This document shows, in pieces, positions 50,639 through 63,582 of a stretch of 64,000 nt of DNA. This stretch comes from Aphrocallistes beatrix (taxonomy: Eukaryota > Porifera > Hexactinellida > Sceptrulophora > Aphrocallistidae). The notes under the pieces were generated by a model. That model had not been told where the DNA came from, made no database searches, and saw nothing but the letters and a program-made list of their open reading frames with translations. The stretch is from NCBI GenBank assembly GCA_963281255.1, contig OY725493.1, forward strand, positions 2,293,550 through 2,357,549, read 5' to 3'. A program made the position numbers and the translations under genes. Numbering within the stretch: the first letter of the stretch is position 1; each line of letters opens with the position of its first letter.

Positions 50639-51628
50639 CTACTGAGTTCCAAGCATTGCTTCCTTCATCATTTGAACAACTACGAGTTCAATCTCGCTTG
50701 GTGTCACTTCGTTCTCGAAAATTTCTTCACTCAACTGATTCAGAACTTCTCTTCTTTTTACATTGCACTTCTCAGCATACAGTTTGAGAGCTTGCTTTCC
50801 CAATTCCTTCTTACTTTCCTCCTTTACCATACTTCCTACTAACTTTCTAAGCGTGATGTCGCATTGGTGTGTGATACTAGCATTCGTTTCGTTCCGAGCT
50901 GCTTCTTTATGGGAGAGGATCTGCTCAGAATCTGCTAAAAGAGGCGGTAGTTTTAATGAAGATTCCTGCATTTTTGTGATAATTGCATCGAATTCAAAAT
51001 CTTTAGCAGTATCAATCTTGATTGTTTCTTGTTCCCATTTGTAAACGGACCCAGCTGGACTAGACAATTGTCCATGAATGTTTAGAATAGCTTGCTCAGG
51101 GACTGGGTGTTCTCTTGCCTTGTTGCGGACTATGCACTCTTCAAGACTTGTTTCAAAGCAAAGCTGTAAGAAACCAGTTCTATGCTTCCTAGCAAGTCTG
51201 TAGTATTCGTACCGCATGCTCCTGTAGTGGAATGTATCGTCAAGGACTAGTATTATGGCTTTATTATTGAAGTCTGTATGCAATTGTGATAATAGCAAAT
51301 CAGAAAACTGTTTATCAGGGCACTCTCCAAAAGGATAGCCTCAGTAACTGTCAATCTGTTCTCGCAAAAAATCTCGATGCTTTTTCCAAATGAAAGTTTC
51401 ATCAGGAGAACCTCCAGCTTGACATCTAGTATCCCTCGGAAGAAATGCATCAAACTCAACACAAATTAAATTCAAATTAGACTCAGTTGATTCGAGATAG
51501 CTCTTGAAAGAATGAATGAAAGTGGACTTCCCACTTGCTGGAATGCCAATCAATATACAGAGCAATTTAACACCCAGTTTCAAACTAGCTGAACCTAAGC
51601 TAGCCATAATATATGTATATCTTGTCAT
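50639..51628 (-). CDS. PSTK: L-seryl-tRNA(Sec) kinase, with one in-frame TGA
   Basis: Kinase that phosphorylates Ser-tRNA(Sec) in the archaeal/eukaryotic selenocysteine pathway. P-loop GIPASGKST, a second block LVLDDTFHYRSMRYEYY followed by RLARKHRTGFLQLCF (typical of PSTK), NKAREHPVP, and a helical C-terminal domain ending VVQMMKEAMLGTQ. The frame is continuous over 329 codons (first ATG at 51628; ATG at 51607 also possible) except for one TGA at 51341-51343, between LREQIDSY and GYPFGECPDKQFSD. Both sides read as good PSTK protein. The TGA may be a nonsense change (CGA to TGA is a simple CpG transition), an assembly error, or read through; it is not at a known functional residue. Length is normal for PSTK (human about 348). 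Confidence 0.85.
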
Positions 51629-52018: not shown

Positions 52019-52235
52019 GAGGTATTAAAAAGTCCAGAGAACTTGTTCCTATGGTCCAGAGAACATGTTCGTATAGTCCAGAAAACATGTACCCCTGACA
52101 TTTATGTGCCTGCGGACAAGATTTCACGCCTCTAGAGCTACCGCGATCCGTCCAACTAACTTACCCGTCCGGCCCAGTTCAGATCGAGTGTAGACCACAT
52201 GGAAGAAAACTGAGTCCGCAGTCCCATAGGACTGA

Positions 52236-52854
52236 ACGAGTGTGAAGTTGGCAGCGAAATCCATGTACACTTTAGAATGCGATAATTTGGAAACCAGGGC
52301 TGATATAAGGAATTCCTTTCACACAAGTAAATAATACATATGGTATATTGTTTTATTAAAATATCAACTAAATCTGACACTTGGTCATCCCGTGATGACT
52401 TTGCAAACTTTGACCATTTTAAGGATTTTTCTGTTTTTTTTCGATACTGTGTGCACTTTTGTGTGCGATTATTTCGAAACCAGTAGTGATACGAGAAATT
52501 CCTTTCACAAAAGTAAATAATACCTATGGTATATTGTGTTATTAAAATATCAACTAAATCTGACACTTGGTCATCCCGTGATGACATTGCAAACTTTGAC
52601 CATTTTAAGGATTTTTCTGTTTTTTTTCGATACTGTGTGCACTTTTGTGTGCGATTAGTTGGAAACCAGTAGAGATACGAGGAATTCCTTCCACACAAGT
52701 AAATAATACCTATGGTATATTGTGTTATTAAAATATCAACTAAATCTGACACTTGGTCATCCCGTGATGACTTTGCAAACTTTGAACATTTTATGGATTT
52801 TTCTGGTAGTTTTCGATACTGTGTGTACTTCTGTGTGCGATAGTTGGAAACCAG
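52236..52854. repeat. Left Foldback arm: about 3 units of 186 bp
   Basis: Period marks (GGAAACCAG or variant) fall at 52289, 52475, 52661 and 52846, spacing 186, 186, 185. Each unit contains GTGCACTTTTGTGTGCGAT and TCATCCCGTGATGAC palindrome-like segments. Because 186 = 3 x 62, frames stay open through the array, giving spurious repetitive reading frames. Confidence 0.93.
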
Positions 52855-53046
52855 ATAGGCTTTAGCTCTATCTTTCCAGTGAAAGATATTATGTTTACAT
52901 TTTCCCTTCTTAATGTCTTCATTATAATTGTTTTACCCAACTACTGTGATTAGATAAATGGATATTGTTTTATGAATTCTATTTCTAAGTACTAAAACGA
53001 TAATCTAATTTTAATCTACAAATTTCTACCTAAACACATGATCTAA

Positions 53047-53690
53047 TCAATCTCTATTGGACTTTCTATTCAGTTCCACTATAGAGTCTACTTTAACAAC
53101 AGGTTGATAATGATCCATATATAATCGAAAATATAATCTCTTTTCTGTCAATGGATGAGCATCATGCTTGTTAATAAATCCATGAGCCGAAAATTTAACC
53201 CATGAGGATAGAGAATCACGATAGACAAAAATATCGGTTTTTAACAATATTGCAGTTAGAAATAATTCTTGATCTGTGCCCCAGGATCTATTACGATCTA
53301 TTTTGCTCTTCTGTATATATTGTTCGATTGAACAGCAAACTCCGCCTAACAGTATGTCATTTTGTGTGTAACAGTACCTAGTGCATTCTTCTCTATATTT
53401 CCCCTTCATATTTTGAATCAATACTTCTCTGATTTCTTGGTGATAATGATCGCTCCCAGTTATAACATATGAGATTGACCGGAATAAACAATTCCCATCA
53501 GGAGAAATCCTTTTTTCTTTCGACGGCCTTAACTCGCGAATTTGCGAGTTTTTATCCTTTGATTCATTCTCGTAAAGAACACCACACACATATGTTAGCT
53601 GTAAGAATTTACACTTTTCTCTCTGCCAAATTTCATTTACTGGTGAGAAGTCACCGTGATCATAATACGTACTTCTTGCATTGTAATATC
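53047..53690 (-). other. OTU-type cysteine protease domain of the transposon protein
   Basis: Contains ISPDGNCLFRSISYVITGS with the catalytic Asp and Cys, and LYMDHYQPVV with the catalytic His near the end, giving a complete OTU active site. Its frame is open from about 53690 (HGDFSPVNEIWQREKCKFLQ) with no ATG before the domain, and it overlaps the end of the upstream transposase frame. It was therefore most likely the C-terminal domain of one protein, separated now by a frame shift. OTU enzymes cleave ubiquitin or ubiquitin-like chains. Confidence 0.85.
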
Positions 53691-56600
53691 AAGTGGAGAA
53701 GAATCACCTGAAACTTCACTATTGATACAACTTACGATTGCAGGTGTTGAGGTATACATCTTCTTTAATGACGACTGGTCTTTAAGAATTATCGATTTTG
53801 TCTGCTTTTCAATAATTGGATTTCGTTTATTACCAGTCTTACCTACTCGTTTTAGAATTTCGGCCTTTTTAGTAGATTTGCTACCATGTTTTTCACTATT
53901 TGTTATATTCTGCGTAAGCAAACTAGTCATTTGAGAATTAGTTGTCATAAAATATGTAGTTTTATTTTTCTTTCGCCTTTGCCAGATTTCTTCTGCTAAT
54001 TTATTATCCTTAATTTTACGAGGAACTTTAGTTTTCAGTATCTTGGAGCTCAGAGGCTCAAATGCAAATCCAAATGCTCTAATTCTTCCTTCCAATCCTT
54101 CACGTATTTTTCTTAAGAAATCGCCTGGCCTCAATTTAGTTTGATTTTGAAGAATATTGATTTTCAGAATTCGCATCCAGTTTTCAACAATGGCATTGCT
54201 AGATCTTACATCACTTTCATTTGGTGCCATAACAGGACCTAAAATCAAACTGGTCCAAAGAGGACATATTGGGATATAATGTGTTGCTAAAAAAGTTGGT
54301 AATCGTGGTAAGAAATAATTATCATTTTCTACGAGAGAAGTTGTTTTATGCATTATTTCTAAATGATAAATTCGTTCTTGACATTTAATTAACACACCAA
54401 ATATCTCCCAAATGGCGATTTACTTTTATAACTATTGCTATCCCCCATATCATTAGTGAGTTCTTCATCCAATTCAGCGATATAATCAAAGTCCTCATCG
54501 ATATCTTCTTCTTTAGACTTGATAGCTTTCTCAATTTTAGAAATATATTGTTGAATCTCTGGGTATATCCTTTTTGCCAAACAGACCATACATAACGCAG
54601 TGAAAAGTTGCTCGAATTCACCAATATTTGTACATGCTACCAATCTTGCCATTAAAAACATAAATATTCTTTTTATAGATTTCTTGATTTTCATCGTATG
54701 CTCAAGTTTATAACTAATACGGTTCATTAAATGAGCTGAACATATATGAAGTATACTTTTATCCCAATACTTTTCGGTTTGAGAGGTTTGTATGTACTGC
54801 CAACAAGTATTAAGATAATCTTCTAGGTGTTGTCGGTTGAAAATCTTGCAAATGCTATGCAACATTGCCCAACTGAAATCTACTTCGACTTGAGAAGGGC
54901 AGATATCCCGGTTCAATATCCTCCTCACATCGTAGTACCATCTGTTTAAAAAATGAGTAATCTCAACATTTGTTTGTTCGTTTGTTAGCATCTCAGCTAG
55001 GGGAATTGGGCTTATTTTCGCTATTGGGTGTTGTAATGTTAGAGCATAGTATAAGAAATTCTTCTCATCACGATCTAGCTTTCTGACAACAGATCCTGTT
55101 GCATCTAAATGCAACTTCAACTTAGACTTTTCTATTAACTTCAAAAAAACAAATTGTTCCTCACAATACATATGTATTATAAGTGGATATCTCGATATCA
55201 TTTGAATATAGCCGTTTAAAACTTTTCCTTTAATAGTACTGTCATAAGATTTCTTGGTTACAGTTATATCCTGCCACATATCATCAGTGAATCGCTGCTT
55301 TTCCATATATTGTGACTTCACCTTCCGTAAAACTTCTTGTGAATGTAATTTATTCAAATTTCCATGCTTTGCAACTGTTAAATTTTGTGAATTTTTGAAG
55401 AGATCATAATTATAATTTATTGCAGAACTGCAAGTTACCTTTTGTCCTAACTTTTCTCGTTGATCACCTGATACATTGCGACTATGTGCAGTTATATGAT
55501 CAAAATGTTCATTTGAAAGATTACCTTCAGCTAATACTTCCACATATATGTATTCAGATTTTCCTTTAGGCATTTCTTCAATCCGAATTGAAAATTTGAA
55601 GCATCTTTTAAATTTGCACATCGCTTGTGCTGTTATAAAAGGACAATTCCGAGATTCAGAATAGCTATTAACTCGGTGATATAAAAATTTGATGACACAG
55701 TAAGGGAATAAACACGAGAGTTTCTGGTTAAAAGTATATGTCCAATTAGGAACCAATTTGTTACACCCAGTTTTCGGTTTAATACAATCCCACTCTTCAG
55801 GATTGAGAAAAAAATGTTTTGTTTGATCAGCTTTTGGCTTCCAGGAACCATAAGATGTAAGTTTATCACCAATACCAATCTCGGAAATATAATCTTGGTG
55901 ACCTAGGGAGTTTGCACTAGTATTTGTATTTATATGGTCATTATATCCGGATTCTAGATGATATTTCTGATTCATTTCCCGAAGATATCTGTGTTGGATG
56001 TAATTTATCCAAGTTAAGATAAGATAGAGATGGACATTTTTGTATAGCTGAGAATTCATCCATTTGGTGTATTGGAGTAGAATTTGCACCCAACAATTTG
56101 GATAGATCTATACTCACAATCAGTATTAATTCTTTGTCAATTATTTCTGTCGAACTATGGCAAGAATTTACTTGTTCTTTAATTTTATCAGTATTTTGAT
56201 ACCAAAAAAGCATAACTTTTCTTCTCAGGGTTAGACGATTCATTTTGAATATGAATTTTGACAATTTCCCCCATATTGACATAGAATCGCGCCAATTACT
56301 GTTTCTAAGTTTTGATTTAATTTTGATCCAGGGCATATCTAATATTGACAATGCATTTATGAATTTTTCAGATATCTTTGCGTTTGCAGACAAAGTTTCC
56401 ATATTCTCTAAAATAAATTATATGTATACAAGTAGTATGTATAAGAATATAATAATACTAGTATTTGCTTTATGTTCATTAATTCAATTTTATTACTGCA
56501 TATAAAATTTACAAATACTAGCAGTGAGAGCAAAAATGTTGAATATAATAATCAGAATCAGCATAATCGATTTAACTCAGTATATTCGTTGTTCTATGTT

Positions 56601-56719
56601 TATTATCAATTTGTTGACATTAGGAACTGAAAATCAAATATACCAAAATGATGTAACTGACATACGGATAGAAATAGAATTTAAACAATATGGTAGTTAT
56701 AAGAATAAAAATTACTCAC

Positions 56720-56897
56720 CTGTTCCCAAAGGACCTGGGTTTAACTCAATATCACCACTCAAGAGTAGTTGGGTTGAAAAGAGAAATATATTTGAAAAGG
56801 TGATTGGCACAAAATATCTTAATTGATTTCCATGGGATGTGTCCTCACACTGTGATTCAAATAACAAATACTTTCCTATGCCATTTAACAACATCAT
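56720..56897 (-). other. Exon 1: 2A ribosome-skipping leader of the transposase
   Basis: ATG at 56897 opens a leader of about 55 residues with a hydrophobic stretch (NIFLFSTQLLLSG) followed by DIELNPGP, an exact match to the 2A consensus D(V/I)ExNPGP. Skipping would fall between Gly55 and Pro56, releasing the leader and starting the transposase with PLGTENMETL. The exon ends at a consensus donor (CAG|GTGAGT), and the joined phase keeps frame with exon 2. Confidence 0.85.
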
Positions 56898-57149
56898 GTT
56901 ACAATAAATAGAAACAAATAAGCCAGCCCAAAAATATTTTCAAATGAAGACAATTGTTCAGAAGAAATGATGTTCATCTGTTTGTTGTTAACATTGATAT
57001 ACAATCCAGATGTACATATTTTGGCATGAATATGTACAAGTGAAGTGAGGATTATTTCGGTAATTAATGGATAATAAAATTATATCAGATAAATTGTCAA
57101 ATATTTATTAGCTGTTAAATTATAACAAAACAGAATTTTCTCAGTATTG

Positions 57150-58140
57150 ATTTCCAAATAATCGCACACAAAAGTGCACACAGTATCGGAAAAAAACAGA
57201 AAAATCCATAAAATGGTCAAAGTTTGCAAAGTCATCACGGGATGACCAAGTGTCAGATTTAGTTGATATTTTAATAACACAATATACCATAGGTATTATT
57301 TACTTGTGTGAAAGGAATTCCTCGTATCTCTACTGGTTTCCAAATAATCGCACACAAAAGTGCACACAGTATCGAAAAAAAACAGACAAATCCATAAAAT
57401 GGTCAAAGTTTGCAATGTCATCACGGGCTGACCAAGTGTCAGATTTAGTTGATATTTTAATAACACAATATACCATAGGTGTTCTTTACTTGTGTGAAAG
57501 GAATTCCTCGTATCTCTACTGGTTTCCAAATAATCGCACACAAAAGTACACACAGTATTGAAAAAAACAAAAAAATCCATGAAAATAGTTAAAGTTTGCA
57601 AAGTCATCACGGGATGACCAAGTGTCAGATTTAGTTGATATTTTAATAAAACAATATACCATAGGTATTCTTTACTTGTGTGAAAGGAATTCCTCGTATC
57701 TCTACTGGTTTCCAAATAATCGCACACAAAAGTGCACACAGTATCGAAAAAATCCATAAAATGGTCAAAGTTTGCAAAGTCATCACGGGATGACCAAGTG
57801 TCAGATTTAGTTGATATTTTAAGAAAACAATATACCATAGGTATTCTTTACTTGTGTGAAAGGAATTTCTCGTATCTCTACTGGTTTCCAAATAATCGCA
57901 CACAAAAGTGCACACAGTATCGAAAAAACCCAGAAAAATCCATAAAATGGTCAAAGTTTGCAAAGTCATCACGGGATGACCAAGTGTCAGATTTAGCTGA
58001 TATTTTAATAAAACAATATACCATAGGTATTATTTACTTGCGTGAAAGGAATTCCTTATATCAGCCCTGGTTTCCAAATTATAGCATTATAAAGTGTACA
58101 TAGATTTCGCTGCTGTTTTCGCTGCCAACTTCACACTCGT
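57150..58140. repeat. Right Foldback arm: about 5 units of 186 bp
   Basis: TTTCCAAATAAT or variant occurs at 57151, 57337, 57523, 57709, 57885 and 58071. Spacing is 186 bp except one unit shortened to 176 by a small deletion. The sequence is the inverse of the left arm and ends GCTGCCAACTTCACACTCGT. Confidence 0.93.
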
Positions 58141-58451
58141 TAGGACTGACACGTCTTTTTAGTGAAAAAGTCAATTTGATCCATAACTCTTTGCAATAGT
58201 GTGGCAACTATGTGACACAATTTACAATTATCATTATTAAGTATCGTACGTGTAATTGAACTTTGGAGCAATTCTAATGTCGCCATCTTTCTCTCTAAAT
58301 CAATGATAATTTAGCTTCATCGATTCCCTTGGGAGAGCGAAATGATGTCCTTTTTTCATCCTTACTCAATAATGAAAACTGAAATAATCTGGTTATTTGC
58401 TCCGAACGACAGAGTAGTTGGATAACACTTCTGCCATTAGGAAAATCTTGT

Positions 58452-58610: not shown

Positions 58611-58922
58611 GATCTTGACTAATGGCAACTACGTTAAGCTTAAGGTATTCAGGTAATTCTTTTGATGGACCCATAGAAATTCCGTCGAAGATAACGACAA
58701 AGGTTTATTTTTGCATTCGGGGCAGGAAAATCGTCACTGGACATGTTCTCTGGACTTTTCAATATGTGAATTTATCATACAGTTTCGAAAAGGCGATATG
58801 CAGAAGTAACACCCGTAAAAACCCTAGATCAACCGTTGAAACTAGTTTCCAGCATATTTTTGAGATCTATTCACTTTATGTACGATATATTGTATACATA
58901 AATAAATAAATAAATAATCATA

Positions 58923-59426
58923 CAGTTGCGGAAATAAAATATTCGGAATTATGTGTAATTACATGTGAAATTACACGTGTAATTACATGTGAAATTACAT
59001 GTGTAATTACATGTGTAATTACACGTGTAATTACATGTGAAATTACATGTGTAATTACATGTGTAATTACACGTGTAATTACATGTGTAATTACGTGTGT
59101 AATTACATGTGTAATTACACGTGTAATTACATGTGTAATTACATGTGTAATTACACGTGTAATTACATGTGTAATTACACGTGTAATTACATGTGTAATT
59201 ACATGTGAAATTACATGTGTAATTACATGTGAAATTACATGTGTAATTACATGTGTAATTACACGTGTAATTACATGTGAAATTACATGTGTAATTACAT
59301 GTGTAATTACACGTGTAATTACATGTGTAATTACACGTGTAATTTCACATGTAATTTCACATGTAATTACACGTGTAATTTCACATGTAGTTACACATAA
59401 TTCCGAATATTTTATTTCCGCAACTG
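58923..59426. mobile_element. MITE filled with a 12-bp palindromic satellite
   Basis: Ends CAGTTGCGGAAATAAAATAT and the exact inverse, then TCGGAATTATGTGTAATTAC mirrored at the other side. Between them (about 58951-59399) are some 37 copies of the 12-bp unit GTGTAATTACAY, itself a near-perfect palindrome. TA is present on the left flank only. No coding. Confidence 0.9.
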
Positions 59427-60094
59427 TCGTTCAACCAAACCCAGACCTATAGCCATAAAGACAAACTATCTTTTGAGCAGTAGCAAATTTTAAGGTGTCA
59501 ATATATATCTACCAAAATGCACACCAGATGAAATATCTTTTCGACGTAATTTCCATCAATAAAATCTCCGTCGATGTAGTGTCCTCCATTCCATTTTAGA
59601 TAAATAGGCCGGATTGAATTATCCTTCTTTGTCCATTGCAAATCATCGCGCGCACTGACGTATCCTATTTGAGTTGTAATTGTACATTCAGGAAATTCAA
59701 TAGCATAGCTATGTCCCATACATTGGCTGATTTTACTGTATTTCTTGATACGTAGTACTCTATTGGATACGTCAGGGTTCTATCTGCAGGTGGGAAGCTT
59801 CCCCTCGCAATTTAACATCATAGATAGAACCTTGTACGTACTGTACTACCATATACAGGGCTATCAACCTGACGTCACGAAATCGTGAGATTAGGTTTTT
59901 ACTTTTTGAGATTAGGTTTTTAAATCGTGAGATTAGGTTATTATACGCAGATAAGTATGCAACAATCATTATCTACGTACTCAAGGATCATGATCTCCAT
60001 GCTCGCACTTAAGGGAGACCGATCATTTAAGAGTGGTCCATATATTTCAGTATAACTTTGAAATATTGGTTCCGAGGGGTCCAAATATTTCGAA
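59427..60094. other. Intergenic
   Basis: No gene recognised. Three copies of GAGATTAGGTTTTTA-like sequence lie at 59885-59945; otherwise nothing. Confidence 0.4.
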
Positions 60095-62566: not shown

Positions 62567-63582
62567 CAGTGGCGGCGGACGGGGGGGGGGCGACCATGCG
62601 GTCGCCCCCCCTCCAGTCATTTTTTTAATTGTACCCTTACCACAATGGATTCCAAAATTTGATTACTATTCGATGCGATATAGGCAGGGTATATGAACTT
62701 ATGAAGCCCGCTATTGAGGGGTAAACAATTGTATTCAATGAACAACAAAATACTACTTAAGTACTATTGTTTTTCATGTTTTCATTGAAGAATTGTAGTC
62801 CCGTATATATGTACTACATATTACTTTATTATTGATAATAACTACTGTATTAGCTTAATTAACCAGTTTTGTTACTGTCATTAGAAGAATTATCAAACGA
62901 TGAAGCGGAATCTTAGTGACTTTTTCTGTCCACAGCCTGTAAAGCACGCAGAGACAGCAGAAGCTGTCCATATTCAAATATTGAAGTTCGAGGGGAGTAC
63001 GACAGGTGGCTTTTGAAATGGAAGAATATCCCGAAAGTTAAGTGACCGATTTGTCCCGTTGAAGCACTTGCCGAATGTGATCAATACTTTTACCCAGCTA
63101 TCCATTCGTATCTAAAAATCTATTGCTGTCTACCCACTACCACTGCATCATCGGAGCGGACCTTTTCTACTTTGAAATACCTCAAGAATTATTTGAGATC
63201 AACAACATCTGAGAAAAGACTCAACGGACTTGCACGACTATTTATCCATAGAGACATTGAAGTAGACGTTGAGAAAGTAATCGATACTTTCTCAACTAAA
63301 AAACGAAATGTTGATTTTACATTGTAGCACGACATGAATTACTTAATAATTTGTAACAGTTCTTATTATACATAACCTACTCGATTTCGATTATTTAACA
63401 TACTTTAATAAGTAAAGCACAGTCACGATATTCTTGAAGAATATCCTCTCAATCAAATGTTGGTGACCGGATGGATATAGACTTAACACCCTAGGTGTGA
63501 ATTAGTAAAACAGTTAGGTCGCTGTGTATTGGCAGCCACTTTGACCGCACCCCCCTTGAAGAAACTCCTAGCGCCGCCAGTG
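62567..63582. mobile_element. Internally deleted hAT element with 8-bp target duplication
   Basis: 1016 bp. Ends CAGTGGCGGCGGACGGGG and CTAGCGCCGCCAGTG, flanked by a perfect ATTTAAAA duplication (62559-62566 and 63583-63590). It retains N- and C-terminal coding of a hAT transposase with the middle deleted. Confidence 0.92.
62900..63327 (+). pseudogene. hAT transposase remnant (N- and C-terminal pieces)
   Basis: ATG at 62900 gives MKRNLSDFFCPQPVKHAETA, the N-terminus of a ZBED/hAT protein, ending at a stop soon after. A second open part reads LAECDQYFYPAIHSYLKIYC then LPTTTASSERTFSTLKYLKN, the hAT C-terminal dimerisation domain, ending DVEKVIDTFSTKKR. The BED finger and catalytic core are missing. 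Confidence 0.88.

Follow-up and report, generated by a model that had tools for sequence, protein, structure and literature searches.

Results

The transposon and its transposase gene

The window, that is, the whole 64,000-nucleotide stretch of Aphrocallistes beatrix DNA that was analyzed, contains a transposon whose gene lies on the minus strand and whose parts are collected in Table 1. Its long inverted ends, built of tandem units, place the element in the Foldback-type structural class. Exact 9-bp target duplications, a length that fits the 8 to 11 bp expected of Mutator-like elements (MULEs), flank three of the four copies for which both ends were found, namely the window copy (TAGGACTGA) and those at loci L021 (GCCTTTAGT) and L014 (ATAAATAAT). 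At the fourth, L024, both ends were located and no matching target duplication was present. Because exact duplications flank three copies, at least three of these elements have moved as a unit.

Table 1. Features of the window element, with the leader types found in the genome
Feature	Position in window	Strand	Details
Whole transposon, gene on minus strand	52236..58140	(-)	inverted ends both start ACGAGTGTGAAGTTGGC; exact 9-bp flanking duplications
Target site duplication, left	52227..52235		TAGGACTGA
Left inverted end	52236..52854		3.2 tandem units of 186 bp
OTU-type cysteine protease domain	53050..53688	(-)	third frame; Pfam PF02338, E 2e-10
Transposase continuation	53640..54419	(-)	another frame; contains SSNAIVENWMR
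SSNAIVENWMR, likely catalytic Glu	54171-54203	(-)
Transposase core	54392..56107	(-)	frame differs from exon start
Second catalytic Asp	54860-54886	(-)	in EVDFSW
First catalytic Asp	55085-55114	(-)	in LHLDATGS
Cys/His pairs in transposase core	55601-55618, 55478-55504	(-)
Start of transposase exon	55944..56407	(-)	ENMETLSANAK...
Predicted phase-1 intron	56408..56719	(-)	GTGAGT ... TTTTAG, 312 bases
Leader exon	56720..56897	(-)	59 codons + one base; recurs in other copies
2A core	56730..56753	(-)	DIELNPGP
Right inverted end, upstream of gene	57151..58140		5.1 tandem units of 186 bp
Target site duplication, right	58141..58149		TAGGACTGA
Leader type A (window)			...STKLLLSGDIELNPGPLGPG
Leader type B			MGNNLDAMLLLLCGDVELNPGPLA
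Leader type C			MGVDLCTWRNHIGIF...ILTILSLFLIICGDVEVNPGPRYN
Leader type D			...LLLLLQCGDIESNPGP
Leader type E			...RLLSCGDVETNPGP
Leader type F			...LQLLICGDIEANPGPQLS
Leader type G			MSSLILRCGDIETNPGSLQ

The transposase frame of the window copy is broken, such that the first two Asp residues, the likely Glu (VENW) and the OTU domain fall in three different frames. Sister families do have long stop-free frames (family C, 1044 and 1037 residues; G, 1095; H, 1041), and the LDATGS, DFSW and N.I.ENW motifs are conserved among relatives of the transposase. Pfam recognized no transposase family in the four window pieces or in seven homologues. It detected no PHD finger in the window pieces or in P0006, P0016, P0003, P0023, P0025 and P0026; only the distant relative P0028 gave a PHD match, below the cut-off. 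A first structure model (pLDDT 60) had no Foldseek match under E 0.001, and a model of the relative P0005 (pLDDT 77.5) had exactly one, the C-terminal half of UvrC (E 3.5e-4), after which came Argonautes and, at rank 44, Hermes. The VIA rows for the P0005 model include the ISCth4 transposase, retroviral integrases, Hermes, the P element and RAG, with an IS256-family member on top. Judged from this model, the protein is a transposase of RNase H-like fold with DD(E) residues, and it looks Mutator-like, with an OTU protease. The earlier note had called it a Foldback/NOF transposase; what stands of that label is a DNA transposon with Foldback-like ends (186-bp tandem units, 9-bp duplications), and for the protein itself the fold of the relative points to RNase H-like transposases.

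The DNA around the transposon has features of its own. Just outside the left end lies a 22-base tandem repeat (AGTCCAGAGAACATGTTCCTAT; 52031-52090), and just beyond the element, on the minus strand, is a gene piece with a KTI12 domain (50642-51340; PF08433, E 5e-12) whose adjoining open frame reaches 51709. A palindromic array of approximately 12-base units (TGTAATTACACG and variants), the halves of which are 89% complementary, occupies 58922-59427, and a plus-strand open frame at 63046-63327 resembles, by eye, the C-terminal part of a hAT transposase.

A leader exon ending in a 2A motif

Starting at an ATG, positions 56897 to 56720 of the minus strand form an open frame that translates as MMLLNGIGKYLLFESQCEDTSHGNQLRYFVPITFSNIFLFSTQLLLSGDIELNPGPLGTG and is followed by GTGAGT. 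This 59-residue leader finishes ...FSNIFLFSTQLLLSGDIELNPGPLGTG and meets the donor CAG|GTGAGT, which is in phase with the predicted acceptor at 56409/56408, so that the joined exons stay in frame into ENMETLSANAKISEKF. The DIELNPGP octapeptide near the end of the exon is the only D[IV]ExNPGP in the six frames of the window (NPGP alone occurs twice), where base composition predicts 0.00004 chance matches to D[IVM]ExNPGP. The 2A leader described in the earlier note is thus confirmed at this position, both as an exact 2A match and as a separate exon with an in-phase donor, the junction being a predicted phase-1 junction. That note had also described the leader as hydrophobic; the leader is there, but its hydropathy is only moderate, with a best 15-residue Kyte–Doolittle mean of 1.51 versus 3.10 in family C.

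The region 56397-56930 matches 18 pieces in the genome, itself included. We aligned the leaders of 13 copies of this window family (family A) in 14 rows, one copy being split. NPGP is kept in 10 of these 13 copies, one each has NPGS and NPDP, and one is lost before the motif; by our reading of the alignment, the leader is open from its start in about seven. Over 10 rows, the exon differs by 5.4% on average and the first part of the intron by 11.3%, the latter figure being raised by one row with an insert.

The motif recurs upstream of related transposases

As a DNA pattern, D[IVM]ExNPGP matches the 100.5-Mb genome 30 times over both strands together, against 0.06 expected from base composition, and the same pattern read backwards matches nowhere. 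The shorter D[IVM]ExNPG matches 39 times (1.7 expected), and 29 of these 39 sites lie less than 5 kb upstream of a same-strand transposase match; the check itself took in 42 sites, three of them from a looser pattern, and the 29 are counted among the 39. Four further sites precede transposase relics detected by tblastn within the locus (L032, L036, L053 and L054), two are copies of the window family by DNA (C11:1385613 and C20:1996952), and C2:7304959 was left out of the assignment. At loci L028, L038 and L035 a leader-like frame is present, and no transposase was found over the following 1.5 kb; by leader type, the sites for which none was found within that distance belong to D (two sites) and E (one site). 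By eye, these three loci carry the 2A plus a GT at +34, and L028 and L038 are mutually related; they may be deleted elements or the heads of something else.

The looser D-x-E-x-N-P-G-P adds three sites to the 30 (C12:2860607, C15:623468 and C15:880435). We rejected C12:2860607 (locus L066) as a leader. Its surroundings (C12:2860450-2861600) hold what we judge by eye to be a different transposase-like frame, IMIDFERASLNALEQNFP...FHFGQAIW, and DLETNPGP is spelled in another frame of that sequence.

A transposase survey chosen without reference to the motif comprised 69 loci, from 76 of 336 candidates scored. At 43% or more identity to the window protein, 29 of 40 scored loci carry D[IVM]ExNPG, NPGS included, on the same strand no more than 4 kb upstream (6 of 8 at 80% or above, 8 of 9 at 55 to 79% and 15 of 23 at 43 to 54%), whereas none of the 29 scored loci at 42% or less carries it within 4 kb upstream. 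This difference indicates that the leader goes with one group of families. A distant family with 37% identity shows no leader in about 0.9 kb upstream. The 2A motif was absent from the 28 homologues of a first search and from three new ones among the five proteins of a second, profile-based search, most of these sequences being pieces. In IMG/VR viral contigs, four stretches fit a pattern and none is a relative.

Splice phase and core residues are kept among diverged leaders

At least one in-frame, stop-free donor–acceptor pair is present in 29 of 37 leader loci. Three others (L032, L046 and L053) have a transposase start and no such pair, and five (L028, L035, L038, L042 and L055) have no transposase start in the locus. 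For a phase control we considered only the best donor of each locus, which left 32 testable loci. That donor is in phase 1 in all 32, at +31 (13 loci) or +34 (19 loci), counted in bases from the D codon. For phase 1, 28 of 32 loci offer an acceptor that is in frame and has a pyrimidine tract, versus 11 and 7 for the wrong phases; near-copies are among the loci, so these are not 28 independent cases. The exact acceptors are predictions, with alternatives in some loci. Five families retain both the intron phase and the position of the donor, and for the window and families B, C and F the predicted junctions place D(V/I)ExNPG|P in frame with the downstream protein.

Conservation is concentrated at the amino acid level in the core. 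In an alignment of five leaders, the common residues are one L, GD, E and NPGP, and there is much divergence outside the core. Across the core codons of the seven leader types, pS is 0.72, near saturation, and pN is 0.047 (0.033 without type G), figures that serve as a count rather than a test, as the seven core sets were selected by the motif and pN is thereby biased downward. Other properties are less uniform. The best 15-residue hydropathy mean is 3.10 in type C, 2.17 in D, 1.30 in G, 1.25 in B and 1.03 in F, and type B has 21 residues up to NPG. Because this mean ranges from 1.03 to 3.10, membrane targeting is not a trait common to all leaders. Pfam returned no match for eight leaders. Single copies differ within a family as well: of the two family C copies, the one at C3:6285021 combines a 1044-residue frame with an open leader (at C3:6284454), and in the other the leader, at C15:2631163, is replaced upstream of LFLIICGDVEV.

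Families with an altered leader or none

Family G has NPGS at all seven sites found. Passages of PMC12846837 report that, in F2A, over 40% activity was retained by more than half of the substitutions at the last 2A position, and by analogy NPGS need not end 2A activity. Related intact elements that lack the leader, which the earlier note had named as evidence against its reading, do occur in one family: the five copies of family H, which have equal scores and 1041-residue open frames, show no motif within 4 kb upstream, and none was seen in the single upstream stretch of this family that was read. The leader is therefore not a requirement throughout the clade.

A 19-row tree places H beside C (99/99), within a larger group of leader-bearing families (81/93). 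The distant family I, without leader, falls outside the leader-bearing group under midpoint rooting, I being a long branch. The 2A label is not more clustered on this tree than in shuffles, of which 158 of 500 scored as low. One gain of the leader followed by its loss in H would be the simplest reading, for which tree support is moderate.

Discussion

A 2A leader as a probable working part of the transposon

Since the 2A peptide recurs in sister families despite a protein identity of only about one half, it is probably a functional component of the transposon and not an accident. We consider it fairly probable that the leader exon truly belongs to, and is inherited within, a Mutator-like clade with Foldback-like ends, giving a spliced leader–2A–transposase frame with skipping at NPG|P. 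From the DNA we infer the start of transcription, the splicing and skipping steps and what becomes of the products, as follows. The small first exon would be spliced to the large transposase–OTU exon to give a single frame. Most ribosomes would then skip the glycyl–prolyl bond at NPG|P, releasing the leader peptide, and the transposase would be made separately with proline as its first residue (here PLGTENMETL...). Leader release and a proline-first transposase are favored because the 2A core, and not hydrophobicity, is common to the leaders. An unskipped fraction would retain the leader and, where this is strongly hydrophobic, as in types C and D, may be held at membranes, away from the nucleus, by analogy with the sea urchin proteins discussed below. 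The 2A would in this way set the yield of free nuclear transposase per mRNA.

Several other readings account for part of these observations. The leader could be a relic of an ancestral state, carried along by the transposons and now without function, as might be expected from the NPGS of family G and the missing leader of family H, both of which have long open frames, and from family A, where 10 of 13 copies keep NPGP and only about seven an open leader. Yet the core has kept its residues while its synonymous sites approached saturation, and phase and donor position have been held in five families; we regard a relic as unlikely. Another reading makes the leader mainly a signal for membrane targeting or retention, with the 2A core kept as its cap and skipping incidental. 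The strong hydrophobicity of types C and D would suit such a signal, and passages of PMC4981915 describe, for sea urchin NLR proteins, an N-terminal 2A that also serves as a signal sequence. But types B, F and G are short or weakly hydrophobic and what the leaders have in common is the 2A core, which makes this reading a rather poor candidate.

There is less still to recommend a small upstream open reading frame whose 2A stalls or releases ribosomes and so lowers transposase output, the transposase itself starting at a methionine of the large exon. Unspliced RNA would indeed have a stop just past the donor (e.g., NPGPLGTGE*), a stop ends the leader frame no more than about 30 residues from NPGP in the loci viewed (sets of 15 and 30), and exon 2 of family A has an early ATG (ENMETLS). 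In several families, however, that stop is produced by reading a GTAAGTAA-like donor in phase 1, and in-frame acceptors are far more frequent for that phase (28 of the 32 testable loci) than for the wrong ones, so we hold this arrangement to be very improbable. A chance motif in non-coding DNA was rejected outright, its probability being negligible: accidents of this kind exist, as DLETNPGP at C12:2860607 illustrates, but the genome-wide excess over expectation and over the backwards control, the recurrence upstream of diverged transposases and the excess of phase-1 junctions over wrong phases all speak against it.

Comparison with known systems

The leader–2A–transposase arrangement that we favor has partial counterparts elsewhere. 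Odon et al. reportedly described, in 2013, 2A-like sequences in APE-type non-LTR retrotransposons, which are likewise mobile elements with a 2A in an open reading frame; those elements reverse-transcribe, whereas the element described here is a DNA transposon and has a separate exon for its 2A. The inverted ends of FB-NOF in Drosophila are composite, and its target duplications measure 9 bp. Tm1 and similar Foldback elements share both traits with the window element, and the passages of PMC3169594 drawn on here describe no leader exon for them. Rehavkus and other Mutator-like elements are alike in their 9-bp target duplications, long inverted ends and a minisatellite near an end, and one cnidarian Mutator group carries an OTU domain, as set out in portions of PMC6446971; the same portions describe no 2A leader. 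Rehavkus has a PHD finger in its transposase, unlike the pieces of the window family, in which none was found.

The closest likeness of the leader itself is to the N-terminal 2A of sea urchin NLR proteins (Roulston et al. 2016, PMC4981915), which, in the parts of that paper used here, is also short, has a hydrophobic stretch and ends in GD(V/I)ExNPGP. A primer printed there encodes MDGFCLLYLLLILLMRSGDVETNPGP (our translation), and the best 15-residue Kyte–Doolittle mean of the sea urchin 2A signal is 2.33. Its unskipped form is diverted to membranes, according to the same parts. The two differ in that the sea urchin 2A heads immune receptors and its activity was measured, whereas the sponge leader heads a transposase and is known from sequence. 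The same D(V/I)ExNPGP octapeptide appears in work on StopGo/2A recoding, which treats it in viral sequences in the passages of PMC12846837 consulted; that text has no mention of transposons and names retrotransposons in one reference only.

In the full-text literature searched, among the matches listed, we found no 2A on a DNA-transposon transposase, in keeping with the statement of the earlier note that it knew of no 2A heading a Foldback/MULE protein; the systematic 2A survey of Rao et al. 2025 lay outside that search. In two of the searched texts, "2A-like" proved to be a gene name in one and a mention in a reference in the other. The leader is thus a known peptide on a class of element for which we found no earlier report. 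If skipping occurs, the amount and place of the transposase would be set during translation by a 2A peptide, a layer of control of which we found no description for cut-and-paste transposons in the searched literature. It would also be a case of 2A peptides retained on exons of their own, with a bearing on how they reach unrelated viral, retrotransposon and host genes. Taken together, NPGP families, NPGS families and leaderless families provide a natural series for examining what the leader contributes to transposition.

Leader-like frames in other assemblies

A profile of five leaders retrieved 78 short open frames from public contigs, all 78 with NPGP, a motif that the profile itself favors. 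W-R-x-x-I-G, as in the family C leader, is present in 51 of the 78, and 48 stop two to six residues past NPGP, like an exon ending at its donor. The window-type leader P0036 and transposase P0002 are both on contigs of 620,872 bases, and the C-type leader P0034 and transposase P0014 both on contigs of 857,787 bases; the equal sizes suggest that each pair shares a contig. A general DNA-transposon cassette can be imagined, in which W-R-x-x-I-G, a hydrophobic stretch and a 2A on a phase-1 exon would head Mutator-like transposases and further genes and would set the split between released and membrane-bound product, an idea that we put forward tentatively and hold to be somewhat doubtful.

Many of the short frames P0038-P0110 combine W-R-x-x-I-G, a hydrophobic stretch and a 2A and end just past NPGP as if at a donor; possibly, in other organisms, they serve as leader exons for additional mobile or host genes. 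By eye, at least three of the 78 frames run into text like a non-LTR endonuclease.
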